DNA from: Lentinula raphanica
Taxonomy: Eukaryota > Basidiomycota > Agaricomycetes > Agaricales > Omphalotaceae
NCBI GenBank assembly: GCA_027919835.1
Contig: JANVFP010000009.1
Coordinates: 1 to 64,000 of the forward strand
Direction: 5' to 3'
Length of the DNA: 64,000 nucleotides
A model generated the notes under the pieces. The model saw only the letters and a program-made list of their open reading frames with translations. It made no database searches and had not been told where the DNA came from. The stretch's first letter is position 1. Every line of letters begins with the position of its first letter. Below are positions 38,477 through 47,943 of this stretch, one piece after another. Both the position numbers and the translations under genes were made by a program.

Positions 38477-38960
38477 AACAGGCAGCCGTACAATATTGCC
38501 TTCCAAGAAGTTCTAGACATAACTTGACACACAGGGCGTCCTAGAAGGACAGCATACTGCTATACTATAGTCTTGCCTTGCAAGAAGTCCTGGATGTGGC
38601 GTGACACACAGGGCGTCCTGGAAGGCCAGCATCCTGGTAGTCTATACTTATAAATATCAAGGCCACCTTCATCTCTTGTGATAGCCCTAGAATGCCAGGG
38701 TGCTGAGTTTCCAGGACACCCTGGGTCTTAAGCAATATCCAAATCTCCTTACAGAGCAATATTGGTCCTTCCTGGACGCCCTATGTGTCAAGTAATATCA
38801 GGCAATATTAATGTCTTCTGGTAGGCTTAGAATGGCAGAATGTTATTTTTGTACCACACCCTGTGCATCAAGTGATGTCCAAACCTCCTTGCAAGGCGAT
38901 ATTGCCCTTTTGTGGTACATATAGAATAACTCGGTGAAGCAATAATTATTTCAAACTTCT
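38477..38960. repeat. Satellite block right of the palindrome
   Basis: Four to five diverged monomers, some in each orientation (CGTCCTAGAAGGACAGCAT near 38,540; CTTCCTGGACGCCCT near 38,770). Confidence 0.65.
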
Positions 38961-39477
38961 AACAAGGCACAATTAGCCTTTTCCTAGGGTGAACTGTGAC
39001 TGAGGTGCAGAAGAGAAATAGGAGAGAGGTGTTAGGTTAGCATGAATAAGCAGGATGAGTACTAAGGGCATATTTGGTGAATCATGTCCATCTCATATGA
39101 GAGTGACTTAATTTCTAATGTTCTGCCGCTTAGATGCTTACTATAGTAGATATATATATATATATATATGTGATGAGTCCGGACGAACAGCTTCATAAAA
39201 GTCTTGGGGCTCAGATTCTGGCACTCAAAAAACTCTCTACATCGAAACGGAAGGCGAGAGAAGATGAATTGGAGTAATAGTCTAATAGAGCATGTCATAG
39301 GTGGTGATACATGGAAAATTTGACCTATGATACACTGTCCCGGAGAATTTGGTAGTCTACAGACGTGTGAGGCAATGTCCCGGAAAGTTTGGGCGAAATC
39401 ATGTCCCGGAAAAAACCACCTATTTCAGAAAATATCGGAAACGACTTTTCAGTTGACTTTCAGGGGTCCTGACCCAC
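38961..39477. other. Gene-free, with a TA run and three TTTCCGGGACA-type motifs
   Basis: (TA)n at about 39,149-39,169. TGTCCCGGA followed by A/G-rich sequence occurs at about 39,339, 39,377 and 39,402. These may be subterminal motifs of the old transposon whose coding remnant begins at 39,478. Confidence 0.4.
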
Positions 39478-40221
39478 CTAACCGAGTAGAGAGAACAAGC
39501 TGATAGCATCATCATATGCAGCTCTGGAGGCATCGTCGAGCTCGGAATCAGAAGGGAATGCTGAGAGGGCAGCGACATCGATCCCACGTCGGTCCAGATA
39601 GCTGTGATTGTACCCTCTGGCACGAGCCTTTCCATCCTTTCCCTGCTCTGAAAGTTGCACTGCATTTCGTAGCATGAGCATGATCTTGGGCAGGAGAATG
39701 TACCAACTGTACATGGTAAAATCGGGGTCGATTTTTCGACTGATTCCGAAGACATGCTCGCAAATGCTAGTGCCAATGATATGAGGAAACACTGGATGTT
39801 GCTTGGGAAGATGATCACGATGGATGAAGATGATCTGGAAGAATCCACGAATCCAGATCCGGATAATGTCGATTGAATCACGAGAGAGGAAGTATTTGGA
39901 TTTGGGATATCCAGCGACATCGAGAAATTTCTCCCAGATGTTTAGAAAGAAATACGCCCTGAGAACCATACGCGCGCGCTCCATAAGGGATATTGTTCGA
40001 TTTTGAAAAGCATCGATGAGCTCGCCGAAAACAAAGATATAGACAATCAGTCCGATATTCTCGTCGGAGTAGTGTTCACCTGAAACAAGCCACTCTAACG
40101 TGTTAGCTGAACAGAACCGTAAAGCAGCATTGTCGTCTTGTTTGTCTGAATTAGACCCTACATCTCGGTTGTACAGTGGTCCTTTTTGTAAGGCAATTTC
40201 TCGAACTTGACGGTAAAGGAC
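39478..40221 (-). pseudogene. Truncated DDE-like transposase, older copy, C-terminal part
   Basis: The minus-strand frame ending at 39478 encodes the C-terminal third of the same transposase family as the 42.2-46.4 kb protein. Shared landmarks: a DKQDD motif, an IYxFVxGExIDAxQNRTIS segment, HRDxxP, SICEHVFGISR (versus EVCEHIFGVGR), a YNHSYLDRRG segment and a SLFSLLG end. Sequence identity is modest, so this is a different, older element. It is cut at 40221 by the insertion of the intact transposon. The frame seems to resume beyond the right end of that insertion (46,648 to about 46,720, minus strand, NGAHLLV then a stop). Confidence 0.7.
40214..40221. repeat. Target-site duplication, left (TAAAGGAC)
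   Basis: Exact 8-mer TAAAGGAC directly before the left terminal repeat; its partner is at 46640-46647. Confidence 0.85.
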
Positions 40222-43200
40222 AGGACCCCGGAAAATCCGCAACCTGCCCTCATCCGGAATGGCCGAATTTTGGCCTGATTTGACGTTCAGGTATAGTGCC
40301 AAAGGCCGATTCATTTCCTTTTTGGGACATCAAGTATGGTCCCAGAAAAGGCTGGAAATAGGCAATTCTTGGTGAGGTATGATGCCAAAGGGCTGAAAAT
40401 CTCAACTCTGAGGTGACCAGGTCTAAGGAACTAAGCTGTATGTATCCTGCAGTGGAAGGTAGTTGTTGCTAGTCATCGTCTCGACCTGTCTCGACAGTAA
40501 AAATGTAATAGCCTGTAATAGCTGAATCATCACGCATCACTACCTACCGCCACAACGAAAGCACTTGCGAATCTCATAGACCAATGTACAGTTCAACAAA
40601 AATTTATTTTTCTTTCCAATCCATGAGTGCGCCCATGAGCCTAACTATAGACTCCATCGAGATAGACGAGCGCAGTGACGATGACATCCTCGAACAGATT
40701 CAGCCCTCGCCGGAGCTCCTTTCGTCCCTAAAAATCCATCCCACAACTTCTGTCTCAAACCTTCTCTCTATGGCCATGCCTAACTGCCCTGGGAGCCGAC
40801 GAATCTACGTCAAGGATTCCGAGTGGTTCAGTAAGGAAGAACCCAACTCAGAGCTCAACCTTGACCCTGCGCTGTTGGTCATTCCATCTCTGCGACAAAG
40901 TGCGGTGCTTGATGGGGAAGCTCTGCGAAAGGCCGTCAAGCAAAAGTGTCGGTCAGTGAGGCATCCAGTCAAAGACAATGTTCTGCTCCCTTTAGGTGCC
41001 GTACGAGCCTGGAAATGGGCAGGCATTCTCCTTGGATCAAAGCTGTTCTGGGAAGAAAGGCTCAAATGGGTCGAGCGAACAGCCGCGAAGGAAGAATGGT
41101 GTTCAGATTTGCTGTCAGCGAGCAAGTGCGCTATTCTCCAATCACCTTGGCAGTTGGGCACCATCACTGGAAGAGGAAATATCGTATCCATCAGACATGT
41201 CGCCGAAATTCTCTTGTCTTCTAAATGGGTCACTGGCGAGACAGTCGATTGTGTCCTGAACGCTATTGGCGCCCCCGCTGCAGATCCTAACGTTGATTTC
41301 GAGCAAGCATTCACGGAGAGTTCTCTCTGTGAGTTTCTACAAAGAAAATATATGCCTGTGGTCAATGGGGAGATGTGCAGTAGCCAACGGCCCACTCACT
41401 GGGGAGATAAACTTCGAGCGGGCGATCTAACCATCCTTCATCTACCTTGGAACATCACCAACCTCCACTGGCTATGGCTTACGGTGGATACCAACCAGAA
41501 GGTTATTCAGGTTCACGATACCGCGCCAGAAGTTACAGCTGCTCACCTGGATGGAATATTACTGTGCTTAGAGCGGTGGCTGGGAGAGTATTTCCCGGGG
41601 TCACAATGGACGCAGATCCTTGAAGACAGTAGCATAGCGAAGCAGAAAGATACATTCTCCTGCGGCGTTGGAATGCTGATGACAATGTGGCATGAAGTTT
41701 CTCGCTCGATGGCATGTACTTGGAATCCGGATCGAGCGTTGGAAGGAAGAGCTCGTCTTTTCAACCTGGTAGTGAGTTCCCTCCAAGGGACAAACGTAAG
41801 TCATGAAAGACTTAGACTGTGGATGAATACTCACATATTGAACGCTACAGCTGGCAGAGCAACAAATGGATGTTTTGGTCGAGATGGAGGCAGTCCTAAA
41901 GAGCCAAAAGCACTCAAATTCTCACACGGCCACTGCTCAAAATGATACAGCATTACGGAACCGCACCTTTTTCAAGGCTACACATAACATACACGAACAC
42001 GACTCTGATTCAGTAGAGAGTGACACAGATTCTGAAACACACGACGTCGCAAACCTTCAGCAAAGCCACGGGAAGCTGACACCGAAGCCTCAAGCAACGG
42101 CTGTGAAGAAAGAGAAAACATCGAGTCCTACCATAGTGAGTACATTGAGTCGATCATGAATTCGTTATGCTGACACAAGTGGCTTTCAAGACCTCATCCA
42201 ATCCGTGGTGGTGGTCTGAGAAAACCTTCCAGAGATTCATGACAAAAATACGTGCGATCGATCCAAATACCGACTTCCATCGTACAGATTCCAGGATCCT
42301 GATTTGTGGACGATGTCGGAAACTTGTTGGTCTTCGTGATGACAAGAACTCTGTTGATCCCTATAAGCAGCATCGAAAATCTCAAAGGTGTTCTAGTACC
42401 AACCCTGGGCAACTTGGTTTGAGTCATTTCCTCTCTCCGACAGCAACAGCTCCTTCTAAACCTGCTCCACTTGTGACGGTGGCTTGTACTGGCCTGACTG
42501 CAAAAATCGAGCCACGTATTCCTATCTATCTCTCTCGTACTGAAATGGGCAACGGCGGTGCTCCTCATCGTTCCACTATACAACAGATACTCATTTCTGA
42601 GCATGAGAAAGGAGGCCAGGCTTCGAAGGCTTATACACCGTCGAAGGAGGAGATCAGGCTGAAAGAGTGGGCACTTTCGCAATGGGTCAACCGACATGAT
42701 CTCAATGCTGTCTTCTCCAAAAATTGTCTGGGAACGATTACAATACAACCTTCTGGCGGACCAGTCTGTGCAAATTGTCTTACGGTCCCGAAAATCAAAA
42801 TCTTCCAAAATGCGTTGAAGAGAACGGCACCAGAAAACAAAAACATGAAGTTCACGCCTCGCGAGTTTCGAAACCCTCTTTTGGGATCAGTATTTCTTGC
42901 GCATGAAGATATTGGGGGGCTTATGGAGATGGTATGCTACTTCATATATGAGCAGTCACAGCTTGCTCAACACCGTTTTCATTTGTAGGGAAACAAGATG
43001 TACTTTGAGTTCACCAAACGGGCACTCCAAGATCGTTACGAAGGAATGAAGGTGTTCAAGGGCTTACTCGAAACAACAATGATCATCGAACAACGGCAAC
43101 ATAAAGGCAAGGGGTTACAGAACATCAAATACCCGGCGGAGTACGACCATTTGATGACAACGCTGGCCTTAACGTCGGCTCGTGCTTATAATCTTGTACA

Positions 43201-46200
43201 AGGAGAACTTGGTGGGCGAACTCTCCGTGGAGTCAGGTAAGTAGCTTTCTGTGGAAGTAATCACATATACCTTCAATGGCTGATATGCAACGTGAAATAG
43301 ACAACTCAGAAGTAAGCACGGACGGTTCCAGCCTGGAATAGTTGACAAGAACTTCGATGACGCTCTCGAATGGGTGAAAGGAATGGGATACGATGGTCCT
43401 TTGGCACTTGCGGTCGATGACACCAAACTCACCCGAGCACTTCGCTCATACAAAGATGGTGACACCTGGAAGCTGGCAGGTATGCATGGGAAGGTTCAAG
43501 TCTTCGAGAGTTACGAGCAGTTGTTGGAGATGAGAGACATTGAGCGTAAGAATCTAGCTGAAAAGGTGACATTTACTCCATGTCAGTTCATGGTTGGTAA
43601 TCTCATTGCTCTATATACAGGTTCGGGTTTGGATGCTGATTGTCCCTGTACCGGGAATTCCACCGAAGATGATCGCTACGGTTGCAATCGCAAGCTCGGT
43701 CACGTCCAAAGAGCTGCGTAGCTGGCATGACGAAATCGAGAAGAAGCTACAGGAGCGAGGGCTTCATCACATATCATATAATGTCGATGGTGCTCAAACT
43801 GAGCGTAGTCTGGGACACGATCTAGTAGATGAAGCCCTTGCATCTGAGCAGTGTCGTATGTGGTCGTTCTCTCACCCTGCCGCCGAGGGTCAACAAATCA
43901 CGTTGAAAGCTCCGCTTTTGCCCAACGGGAAGCCTCGAGTAGTCACGTCTGATGGTAAACATGGGAAGAAAAATGGACGAGGAAGCGCAACTAGTGGTGC
44001 TCGTATTCTTTGTCCGGGTCGCTATATCGTACATTACGGTCAACTTGCTCATCTCGCAGAAGGCCCCGATACACCTCTCATGAAGGCCGATATCATTGGT
44101 GTTGATAAGCAAGACGACAGGGCTGCTGCTAGACTGTTCTCTGCTTCGGTCATTCAGTACATTTCCAAGATACTGCCGGATGAGCTGGGCACCACTATCT
44201 ACCTCTTTGTCATCGGAGAAATCATTGATGCGCAGCAGAACCGTACCATCTCTCATGTGGAACGTGTCAAGATGCTCTGGAGAGGTCGCTTCTTTCTCGA
44301 AGGTTGGCATAGTTATGTTCAGCGACATCCCCACTATAACATCAACACGCACTTCATCACTCGGGACCTTTATGATATTCTCTCAATCTTCATCTCGAGT
44401 ATGCTGATGCTCCCACTAATCCATCGGGATTACTTTCCCAACGTTCCCTGCTCCCCGTGGTCTCATTCGACTGAGGTTTGCGAACACATATTCGGAGTCG
44501 GTAGAACCAGTATCCCCGGTCTGAAGGATTTCACATTCGCGGACTGGATTTTGATGAAACCGAAGGTGGAATTCATCATGAATGGTGCGGCGAAATTCAA
44601 ACAGACTCAAGCTTCAGCTAGCAGTCATCGTTCGGGATACCATCACTCCTGGTACGACAATGCAAACGTCGATCTCAAGAATTTAGCCACATTTCCAACC
44701 GACGTAGAATTCCAGCAAGCTATGGATGTCGGTTTTATCGAGGCGAAACGACTTCTTGCAGTACTTGGTATGGACTATATGGGTTCGCAGACAGAAGACA
44801 TGGCTCAGGGACTGCAAGAAGCATTAGCTGCGATGACGGAGGAAAGCAAGGTCAATGGTGTCGGCGCTGTACACTATGACTCGTTAGATGACATTCCAGT
44901 CGACACCATCCTCGAGCGTATACTGCAGACCGATATTGATGATGAACAACAGCATATCCTTCCTCATCTACATGAGACGCGAATGGCAAATCTAGGAGCT
45001 GCTGCAGCATCAGCAGTCATATATGACACGCTTCGCATGTGAGTGCCAAATCGAGAATAATTGTGCCATGTTCCCTTCCCTAATGCTTCTACAGAGACGA
45101 ATTACCGGAGCTCTCAGATGAAGACCAACAGGGCTGGATGAGCACGATCAAAGACCTTGCTCTCGAGATGCAGAAGGTACAGCAAGAACGACGCAAACAG
45201 CCTGAAGCAAACACTGTATTGATGGTGAGTCTGAACCACTTCGTATATGATCGGTCAAGCAAAGATGGAGTCTGACATGTGTTCATATATTCCAGACCAC
45301 GGATCGCGATGCTCTGCTTGCTCTTGCTGCCAAGAAAGCTACCGACTTCGGAACATCAAACAATTTCAAATACTCCGCACTCGTATCATTGCGGGAAGCC
45401 CACGAAACACAAGAGGCCAAGACTGCAATCGCGTCTCGCTTCCGTCATGCAGATATCACAAAGCAGATAGAATGTCCGGCGGTCAACGACTCTGGCACAG
45501 AGTCTGAGTCTTATGATACCAAACCACTCAAAGCTGCACTAGTCAACGAAATCACCCGATTGATATCAGCTAATCTCACACAGGATGTCACCTCTGTATC
45601 TGGCATGGAACGTCGAGCCCGTTGGCAAAATCTACGAATACCTGGTCTCTCAATTCCGGAGGAACAGACGCCTGCTGCCACGACTCCCACAACAAATATC
45701 CAAAACAAATCGATAACTACCAGACTCGCAACGCCACGAAAAGGAAGAGCTCGCTATGAAATTTTGGAGAGGAGAACCCGCCTCCCACTGGTGTCTGCTG
45801 GAATCTCAGAATTCCGACCGCTCAGACAAGGTTCGTGGGTTATTGTGATGCTGCAGGCAAAGTTATGGGTTGGACAAGGTGTGTATCACTGCTTATCATT
45901 ACCAACGTCGTCTCATATAGCTGTCTTAGTTAAGGTGATCTATCATGAAGGCGGACTCAAAAGAACCACCCATAATTACACCCCACACTCCACGGATGTT
46001 CGTTCTATTTCCCGACTCGTTGTCCAACTGTATACCGACTTCGGTGGTTATCTATCACCACAAGTTGCAACAGTCGAGAACGTTTCCCGTCCAGCACCTT
46101 CGTTTGCATTCCTGCGCTCGGCCAATCTCATTGTTTCCCTAGATTCTAATCTATCGACACATACAGGAATGCTATGCACAAAGGTCCAAGACATACCGGG

Positions 46201-46639
46201 AAGCGTCGAAATTGCCCCACAGTTATATTTGGTCAAATATCCTGAATCTCTCGATGTGCTCCTGCGGGACTTACAACCGCAACACTCAGAGCTGGTCGCA
46301 ATTGCCAAGGCAATTGTAGAGGACCAATCGCCTCATGGTAAACGCAAGGCGGCTGCTATGAATTGAGGCGGCTGCTGGCAATGGTGTAGCGGGTGAATTG
46401 ACTTCTAATTGACATTCTACTGAGCCTCTGTAGTCTAATACAATGTTTTTGACATGATCGTAAGAGGGCGTAAGGTGTTTGCTGCTCGAGAAGAGGTATG
46501 ATCCCAAAAAGGGCCGAATTTTGGAATTTTGGTCAGAGGTATCGTGGAAATGGCCGAATTTTATCCAAATTGGGAACGTGGGAAAGGCCGAATTTGGCCA
46601 ACTCAGGATGAGAGCTCTTTCCGGATTTTCCGGGGTCCT
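40222..46639 (+). mobile_element. 6.4-kb DNA transposon encoding a Ulp1 protease-transposase fusion
   Basis: Perfect 18-bp terminal inverted repeats, AGGACCCCGGAAAATCCG at 40222-40239 and its complement at 46622-46639, continue imperfectly inward (a shared CTCATCC and GGCCGAATTTTGG-type subterminal motifs). They are flanked by an exact 8-bp duplication, TAAAGGAC. The element holds one predicted gene on the plus strand that fills most of it. It is inserted in an older transposase of the same family. The 8-bp duplication fits hAT, P and KDZ/Zisupton-like elements alike; I cannot place it more precisely. All reading frames and splice sites look intact, so it may be autonomous and recently active. 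Confidence 0.85.
40584..46366 (+). CDS. Ulp1/C48-like protease fused to zinc-finger DDE-like transposase
   Basis: Eight exons: 40584-41795, 41851-42135, 42191-42931, 42989-43236, 43301-43565, 43621-45038, 45095-45224, 45296-46366; 1789 aa (a start at 40623 is equally possible). Introns are 54-71 nt and all phases close. Residues ~1-410 form a Ulp1-like cysteine protease: His295 (LHWLWLTVD), Asp312 (VHDTA), Gln354 and Cys360 (FSCGVGML). The spacing nearly equals that of yeast Ulp1 (His514, Asp531, Gln574, Cys580). After an acidic linker (~405-499) comes a WWW-containing DNA-binding-like part with a C2HC finger (CGRC, then H and C). The RNase-H-like catalytic region has candidate acids in LAVDDTK, YNVDGA and EVCEHIFG. 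The tail is Ser/Thr-rich. The intron at 42136-42190 that joins protease and transposase has a GTGAGT donor and CTGAC branch; without it they would be two genes. Confidence 0.75.
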
Positions 46640-46647
46640 TAAAGGAC
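46640..46647. repeat. Target-site duplication, right (TAAAGGAC)
   Basis: Exact partner of 40214-40221, directly after the right terminal repeat. Confidence 0.85.
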
Positions 46648-46773
46648 AACACAGTTAGGAACTTAGACCAGAAGATGGGCACCGTTGTATATGCGTAGAC
46701 GAGCCAAGATGTTGAATTTGAGGAAGGGAAAAGCCAAAAAAAAGTATACAAACCGAGGATGAGGAGATCGCGA

Positions 46774-47388
46774 TCAGGGAGTGTCGAACGAGGACGAACG
46801 TACAAAACGGGGGGAGGGGGAGGGGCGGAGCCGAGGGCCTAGCACAACAAAAAGGTTGCTGGGATGTGTACCGTCATTCAGGACGTCTAAACGAGGTGAA
46901 GACGAGCCGAGAAACGATGGTCTCTGAGGATCGGTTGAAGGTGATGTTTCTGATGAATTCTCCTCGACGCGAATAAAGTCAGCAGCGTCCAAGAACCATT
47001 CCGGATTATCGGCCATGACTTTGTACGTCAATCCTTCGGGGAAATCTTGCACATTGGGAAAATTATTGAATGGTGGATGAATGAAAACGGCGTTGGGGTC
47101 AGTAGGCGATGGATCCATACTGGCAGGAGGGATAACATGAACTTCGGGTCGAGTGGTATGGCGCGAGAGATGATTGTATCTGTTCTTAGAATGAGTGCCG
47201 GATAGCGGATTCGCGCTGGGAGTATAAGGACGTGGGTTGAACGATGATTCTGCTGGCTTGAAAAAGTCCAAATCGGCAGCAGAGGTAAGAGCTCGCTTGA
47301 GTACTCTTGGGAAGGTAGACGATGCAGAAGATGCACCGGAGAATGAATAAGATGGTGCTAGAACAGGGCGGGGGGTGTTAGCTTCCAT
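46774..47388 (-). CDS. Ser/Pro-rich ORF, 204 aa, hypothetical
   Basis: A clean ATG-to-stop frame on the minus strand, starting MEANTPRPVLAPSYSFSG. It is rich in Ser, Pro and Arg, with a more ordered segment FPEGLTYKVMADNPEWFLDAADFIRVEE. It starts ~170 bp to the left of the double-hairpin module. Its relation to the older transposon remnant to its left is unclear. Family not recognised. Confidence 0.4.
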   Translation of the reverse strand: MEANTPRPVLAPSYSFSGASSASSTFPRVLKRALTSAADLDFFKPAESSFNPRPYTPSANPLSGTHSKNRYNHLSRHTTRPEVHVIPPASMDPSPTDPNAVFIHPPFNNFPNVQDFPEGLTYKVMADNPEWFLDAADFIRVEENSSETSPSTDPQRPSFLGSSSPRLDVLNDGTHPSNLFVVLGPRLRPSPSPRFVRSSSFDTP

Positions 47389-47556
47389 CGTGAGCCAGGC
47401 TGCACAGGGAGGATGCTAAATAAGAGATGGGCAGCTCCGAGAATATGTCAGATGAGAGAGTTGTAGAATAGAGATGAAGATGTCAGAAAAGGCGGGAGAC
47501 GCGCAAAGAGACTGAAGGATGTGTAAGTCAATGGCGGGAAAGAAAAGAAGAAGGGT

Positions 47557-47632
47557 ATCCGTTCATCTGAACGGATTATGCACCAAATGTGTAAGTGTTG
47601 GTTGGCAGGCCGTGTCATCACGGCCTTCAACC
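47557..47632. ncRNA. Double-hairpin module, copy 1
   Basis: Hairpin 1: ATCCGTTC-ATCT-GAACGGAT (47557-47576). Hairpin 2: GGTTG, GCA, GGCCGTG, loop TCAT, CACGGCC, TT, CAACC (47600-47632). Two more copies with compensatory changes lie at 55.56 and 58.70 kb. RNA or DNA function is not known; it lies between a minus-strand ORF and the T5orf172-like gene. Confidence 0.55.
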
Positions 47633-47943
47633 CTCTAAGTTACACCTTGTCGTCTCTAGGCTCCCTTGATCATGTCTTGCAGTCGTTGGTGTTGTTTTAG
47701 AGGTCCTATCATGCTAGTATAGTGTAAGAAGATGAAGTTTATCATCAAGTAAATGACCATAAACAATTACTGATCCCATCGACACAAACACTTTGGACCT
47801 ATTCCATCGCACACAACCTTCAATACAGACCTGCTCATCACTCATTGTATACCTACACTACACAGGGCTGCTCTCTCTACCACCATAAACTCTCCCAAAA
47901 CCAACTCTACCCGGTTTCCCCACTCCAACTCGTGATCTAAATC

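Follow-up and report, generated by a model that had tools for sequence, protein, structure and literature searches.

A complete DNA transposon of 6,418 bp occupies positions 40222 to 46639 of the window, the 64,000-nucleotide stretch of a Lentinula raphanica contig analyzed here. It is predicted to encode, on one polypeptide, a Ulp1/C48-like protease, an acidic linker, a zinc-finger-like motif, an unclassified DDE-type transposase, and a C-terminal region. The explanation that we favor as a whole, and consider probable, is that of an autonomous transposon with 8-bp target site duplications (TSDs) whose single-gene fusion carries a tethered deconjugase favoring mobility. We hold the structural part of this explanation with high confidence, while the deconjugation role of the protease falls just short of an even proposition. 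In this model, the zinc finger and the DDE core would bind and move AGGACCCC-type ends, and the tethered protease would strip SUMO, or a different ubiquitin-like tag, off either the transposase or silencing and repair proteins at the ends or the target; such tag removal at the transpososome would favor mobility. A role for Ulp1 in several unrelated transposons has only been proposed, according to passages of PMC2836005. Because the frames of the predicted fusion are open, its ends are known, short deletion derivatives exist, and a sister family has moved recently, such a role can be tested. Related elements in this genome have the same layout, which opens the connection of transposons with SUMO-type proteases to testing as well.

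Ends, target site duplications, and mobility

The element ends in perfect 18-bp terminal inverted repeats (TIRs; 40222 to 40239 on the forward strand and 46622 to 46639 on the reverse strand), which sit within a longer, imperfect 55-nt pair (78%), and it is bordered by identical copies of TAAAGGAC at 40214 to 40221 and 46640 to 46647. The perfect repeats and the exact 8-bp duplication had both been proposed in the initial annotation of the window, and both are borne out. The element is nested inside a gene fragment for a related transposase (39391 to 40221, minus strand) that has 56% amino acid identity to the L038 relative; at the rejoined empty site, the frame of this flanking fragment runs a few codons further and then meets a stop.

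A genome-wide search for the terminus and its 8-bp duplications, which the initial annotation had suggested as a check, recovered a whole group of insertions. Across the 49-Mb genome, allowing up to 2 mismatches, the 17-base terminus has 59 matches and its reversed control 3, and exact 8-bp TSDs flank 11/11 of the independent insertions that were inspected and for which both ends were located. These are the window event, L038 (AATTTTGT), L041 (ATTCCGAT), L042 (ATTTTGAA), and insertions at C25, C27, C3, C18, C34, C26, and C71/C15, which are deletion derivatives or short relatives, each bordered by an exact TSD of its own; C71 and C15 have one common TSD and were counted once, and the ends at C27 lie 19.6 kb apart and were paired by their TSD. 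Outside this count are L033 (the other C26 copy) and L039, each without one end, as well as C28 and the remaining terminus matches. The derivatives at C25, C27, and C3 (L028 to L031) have a common internal deletion, with its junction at about 40691/46331 in window terms and further DNA inserted in each.

Full copies of the window type are present on C9, C24, and C21 and are near-identical. Because their TSD and duplicated flanks are common, they represent one insertion that was duplicated, and on the same evidence we rejected the idea that the full element had recently transposed three times. Including the element, the duplicated stretch is 99.9% identical over 9.1 kb (C24) and 8.1 kb (C21), with flanks of about 2.7 and 1.7 kb as far as fetched. 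It corresponds to about 38747 to 47840 of the window, measures at least 8.1 to 9.1 kb on the three contigs, and is located no further than about 45 kb from one end of each.

The initial annotation had regarded all frames as intact and the element as possibly still mobile. The window copy does have open frames, the only one of the three full copies to do so: exon 5 of the C24 copy is missing 8 bp, and in the C21 copy exon 3 is missing 1 bp and exon 6 contains a stop. Movement itself is shown by the derivatives and short relatives with TSDs of their own and, for the group, by the two C4 copies, which are 99.98% identical over 6,258 bp, with different TSDs (ATTCCGAT versus ATTTTGAA) and flanks that do not match; a Ulp1-bearing member has therefore moved recently. 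The window element is probably an autonomous cut-and-paste transposon.

Gene model

A hand-made gene model on the forward strand has eight exons and seven introns of 55 to 71 nt and yields a continuous protein of 1,776 amino acids. Exon 1 (40623 to 41795) encodes the protease, intron 1 (41796 to 41850; GTAAGT..CTACAG) lies behind it, and exon 2 (41851 to 42135) encodes the linker, which is rich in acidic residues and serine. Intron 2 (42136 to 42190) is 55 nt long and in phase 0, with a GTGAGT donor, a CTGAC branch-like site, and a CAAG acceptor. Initially described as the single intron joining two coding parts, it does join the frames in phase but is only one of seven introns and the second of two between protease and finger. 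Exon 3 (42191 to 42931) contains the motif C-x2-C-x(n)-H-x(n)-C, which is BED-like by eye; the zinc finger noted earlier is a motif recognized by eye, and a Pfam search of the window protein matched no zinc-finger family. Exon 4 (42989 to 43236) leads to exon 5 (43301 to 43565), which holds the first catalytic Asp (LAVDDTKL), and exon 6 (43621 to 45038) carries the transposase core with the second Asp (NVDGAQTE) and the final Glu (CEHIFG). The model closes with exon 7 (45095 to 45224) and exon 8 (45296 to 46366), the latter encoding the C-terminal region, which has no Pfam family match; an extra intron at about 45880 to 45930 is possible, with the frame staying open without it.

Splice predictions came from a home-made model that is capable of inventing introns. 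Its dynamic-programming run recovered both protease-to-finger introns of the window, altered other introns, and placed one cut inside the finger.

The protease domain

The active-site residues of the window protease are H282, D299, Q341, and C347. Their spacing (17/42/6) is nearly that of yeast Ulp1 (17/43/6, counted by eye in the profile alignment), as the initial annotation had claimed. It had also suggested a C48 profile search with the N-terminal part, which gave an affirmative answer for the group and a weaker one for the window protease alone. Exon 1 scored 18.3 bits against Pfam C48 (PF02902), below the cut-off of 20.7, whereas the corresponding proteases from relatives on C11 and C4, also placed ahead of this kind of transposase, scored 34.4 and 32.5 bits once spliced as predicted, above it; that of the C28 relative had no Pfam match. 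A profile built from the four proteases matched yeast Ulp1 (1EUV) best in the PDB, with an E value of 9.6e-9, followed by OtDUB, another ULP protease, XopD, and SENP1. As OtDUB and XopD are also among the matches, ubiquitin is possible as a substrate. With only 18 to 23% identity among the four lineages, the protease alignment has seven invariant columns, among them the catalytic His, the Trp behind it, the Gln, and the Cys (4/4); the Asp does not fall in one column across all four rows.

The transposase core and its relatives

The D, D, and E columns are invariant in an alignment of three lineages, comprising the window element and its C11 and C4 relatives. Pfam, PHROGs, NCBIfam, and a profile search against the PDB returned nothing usable on the family of this transposase. 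The comparison with P, hAT, and KDZ transposases put forward in the initial annotation gave no match: no Pfam model of the P element (P/THAP9 type), hAT, KDZ (Kyakuja-Dileera-Zisupton; PF18758), or Plavaka (PF18759) families matched the cores of the window element and L041 at E values of up to 10. We accordingly rejected these four assignments, although 8-bp TSDs are common to our element and the P and hAT elements. For KDZ, no match lay in the element among the own-genome matches listed; for Plavaka, none lay in the element either, and its TSDs are of 2 to 3 bp rather than 8 bp. Ginger1 was rejected on the N-terminal position of Ulp1 in our element and the lack of an integrase match by Pfam. 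P-like motifs picked out by eye are a weak observation.

AlphaFold models were poor, with pLDDT values of 44.8 and 35.8, the former too poor to judge an RNase H fold. Searches with Foldseek (transposase model) and VIA-align (protease model) returned only unrelated, mostly helical proteins, with no transposase and no Ulp1 among them, a result that speaks neither for nor against the assignments. Viral contigs, scanned twice for relatives of the transposase, had none. In its own genome, relatives are present on C11 (35% amino acid identity), C12 (34%), C28 (32%), and, twice, C4 (29%), and the fragment on the flank of the element and its duplicates are 35 to 37% identical. A further relative of the C4 type, on C25, is truncated and without the protease region.

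Comparison with known Ulp1-bearing transposons

The initial annotation had set an in-frame fusion apart from the Ulp1-like peptidases known as separate genes in some transposons. Such a fusion is already known from Ginger1, in which, in the passages of PMC2836005 drawn on here, one transposase polypeptide includes Ulp1 (pfam02902), with Ulp1 or OTU in a C-terminal position, and Ulp1-type domains lie within plant CACTA and Mutator-like elements (PMC2528002, likewise in passages). What appears to be new here is the N-terminal variant of the fusion. Ginger1 and the window element are alike in having Ulp1 on the transposase chain and in cut-and-paste movement with TIRs. According to the same passages, however, Ginger1 has a Gypsy-integrase-like core, a C-terminal Ulp1 or OTU domain, CCGT-type duplications, and hosts among the animals of its Table 1, whereas the window element has an N-terminal Ulp1, an unclassified core, and 8-bp duplications. 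The plant elements, among which passages of PMC2528002 mention rice proteins with Tnp2 and ULP1 domains, differ in belonging to other transposase superfamilies and in occurring in plants. Oomycete Cryptons also carry a C48 peptidase but use a tyrosine recombinase, not a DDE enzyme (passages of PMC3212892). Duplications of 8 bp are a trait of P elements (passages of PMC7776569) and of hAT and Zisupton (passages of PMC12730594), from all of which the cores of the window element and L041 are set apart by the failed Pfam comparisons above.

Plavaka elements of the same genome resemble it in layout: in two examples, a C48 domain, a C2H2-like finger scoring under the Pfam cut-off, and the transposase follow one another on one strand. 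Plavaka differs from the window element in its Pfam transposase family, in its duplications of 2 to 3 bp (passages of PMC12730594), and in a C48-to-finger splice that is absent or poor in these two examples. Because Plavaka, with another transposase family, carries the same kind of protease upstream, Ulp1 may have been recruited more than once by fungal DNA transposons. An N-terminal fusion of Ulp1 to a transposase with 8-bp TSDs was not found among the papers listed in searches of the open-access PMC literature, which is no proof of its absence, nor did such searches return any paper for Ulp1 with Agaricomycetes and DNA transposons or for Ulp1 with Zisupton. We tentatively propose, as an idea with somewhat less than even chances, that the element belongs to an undescribed fungal superfamily with 8-bp duplications, AGGACCCC ends, and a transposase permanently placed behind a SUMO or ubiquitin-like deconjugase, next to Plavaka with a seemingly separate protease gene; the repeated recruitment of Ulp1 would plausibly counter SUMO-dependent silencing or steer repair.

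C48 proteases in front of transposases genome-wide

A search of the L. raphanica genome for C48 domains, with matches under the Pfam cut-off included, gave 64 pieces that merged to at least 47 loci; counted as pieces, there are at least 158 KDZ and at least 129 Plavaka matches, numbers in keeping with an agaricomycete. A Plavaka match lies 0 to 5 kb downstream on the same strand of 22/47 C48 loci, at distances of 1.8 to 4.4 kb, and 0 to 5 kb upstream of none (81 of the 129 matches used, one per place). With 150 of the 158 KDZ matches used (87 in a first count), none of the 47 loci has KDZ downstream, and one has it 4 kb upstream. Seven further loci precede transposases of the window family, three of them being one duplicated insertion. 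In all, 29/47 C48 loci precede a transposase of one or the other kind, which suggests a general trait of this fungus.

At the Plavaka loci L045 and L046, a weak C2H2 finger lies between C48 and the transposase. Six C48 loci have pairwise equal scores (C19/C20, C24/C4, and C14/C33), five of them without Plavaka or KDZ within 5 kb downstream; these loci may be part of further transposons.

Predicted fusion of protease and transposase and alternative explanations

The reading frames of protease and transposase can be joined by splicing in three divergent lineages. For each, the stretch that begins one codon ahead of the catalytic Cys and ends at the first Cys of the finger was searched for the highest-scoring path that keeps the frame by way of canonical introns, and this path was compared with those of 1000 dinucleotide shuffles. 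Any joining path was found in 103 (window), 112 (L039), and 137 (L041) shuffles, and a path equaling the real one in 0, 0, and 2, respectively. The first intron of the real paths lies 138 (window), 132 (L039), and 125 nt (L041) from the start of this stretch and is 55, 56, and 54 nt long. Its phase is 0 in the window element and L039 and 2 in L041, and it is therefore perhaps not one ancestral intron. Together with the open frames of the window copy and the same domain order in the C11/C12 and C4 relatives, these joinable frames support, as a prediction, the initial description of a complete transposon whose gene links Ulp1, finger, and transposase in frame, and a single-chain protease-transposase fusion generated by splicing is what the sequences predict.

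A rather improbable alternative is that one transposon holds two adjacent genes, protease and then transposase, and that the splice keeping the frame arises by chance or yields a minor isoform. This seems to be the arrangement of the Plavaka elements in this genome, and C48 precedes Plavaka at the 22 loci described above; as contrast loci in the splice test, L045 had no joining path, and L046 had a poor one (46/500 shuffles with a path, 32 of them as good). The C28 relative, whose transposase is decayed and has stops, also lacks a joining path from protease to finger. Within the window element, two separate products are conceivable because the unspliced protease frame meets a stop at 42157 to 42159 and an ATG in the transposase frame follows at 42167. 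Only 7 nt separate the two, however, leaving no room for a second promoter, and it is the canonical introns joining the frames in three lineages, rarely or never equaled in shuffled sequence, that lead us to prefer the fusion.

Given a fusion, the protease might act in cis and cut a polyprotein into protease and transposase, as the initial annotation had also considered. The prediction of both in one chain would suit this idea. Ulp1 enzymes, though, cut behind the Gly-Gly of ubiquitin-like proteins. Gly-Gly is absent from the linkers of the window element, L039, and L041, which makes self-processing less likely, and Pfam found no ubiquitin-like domain in residues 1 to 905 of the spliced model or in exons 6 and 8; the idea has gained no support, and we regard it as improbable. 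To an equal degree we doubt that the protease is a passenger, that is, a captured host Ulp gene hitchhiking without a role. Transduplication of ULP has been reported in plant transposons (passages of PMC2528002), and one copy of the C11/C12 pair has a stop in its protease. Against this, four lineages with protease identities as low as 18 to 23% retain the H, W, Q, and C, and such conservation of the active site makes a passenger less likely; the placement of 29/47 C48 loci before transposases of two kinds would also be hard to explain without use. A tethered deconjugase thus remains our preferred reading of the fusion.

A test of selection lacked material, since the window-type copies all stem from a single duplication and L038 and L039 differ by just five synonymous and five replacement codon changes, which give no clear sign of selection; one of the replacements is the stop in the L039 protease. 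L038 lacks about 554 bp that are present in L039, the finger-like motif included. A weak candidate for a SUMO-interaction-like stretch, picked out by eye, lies close to the N-terminal end of the L038 model.
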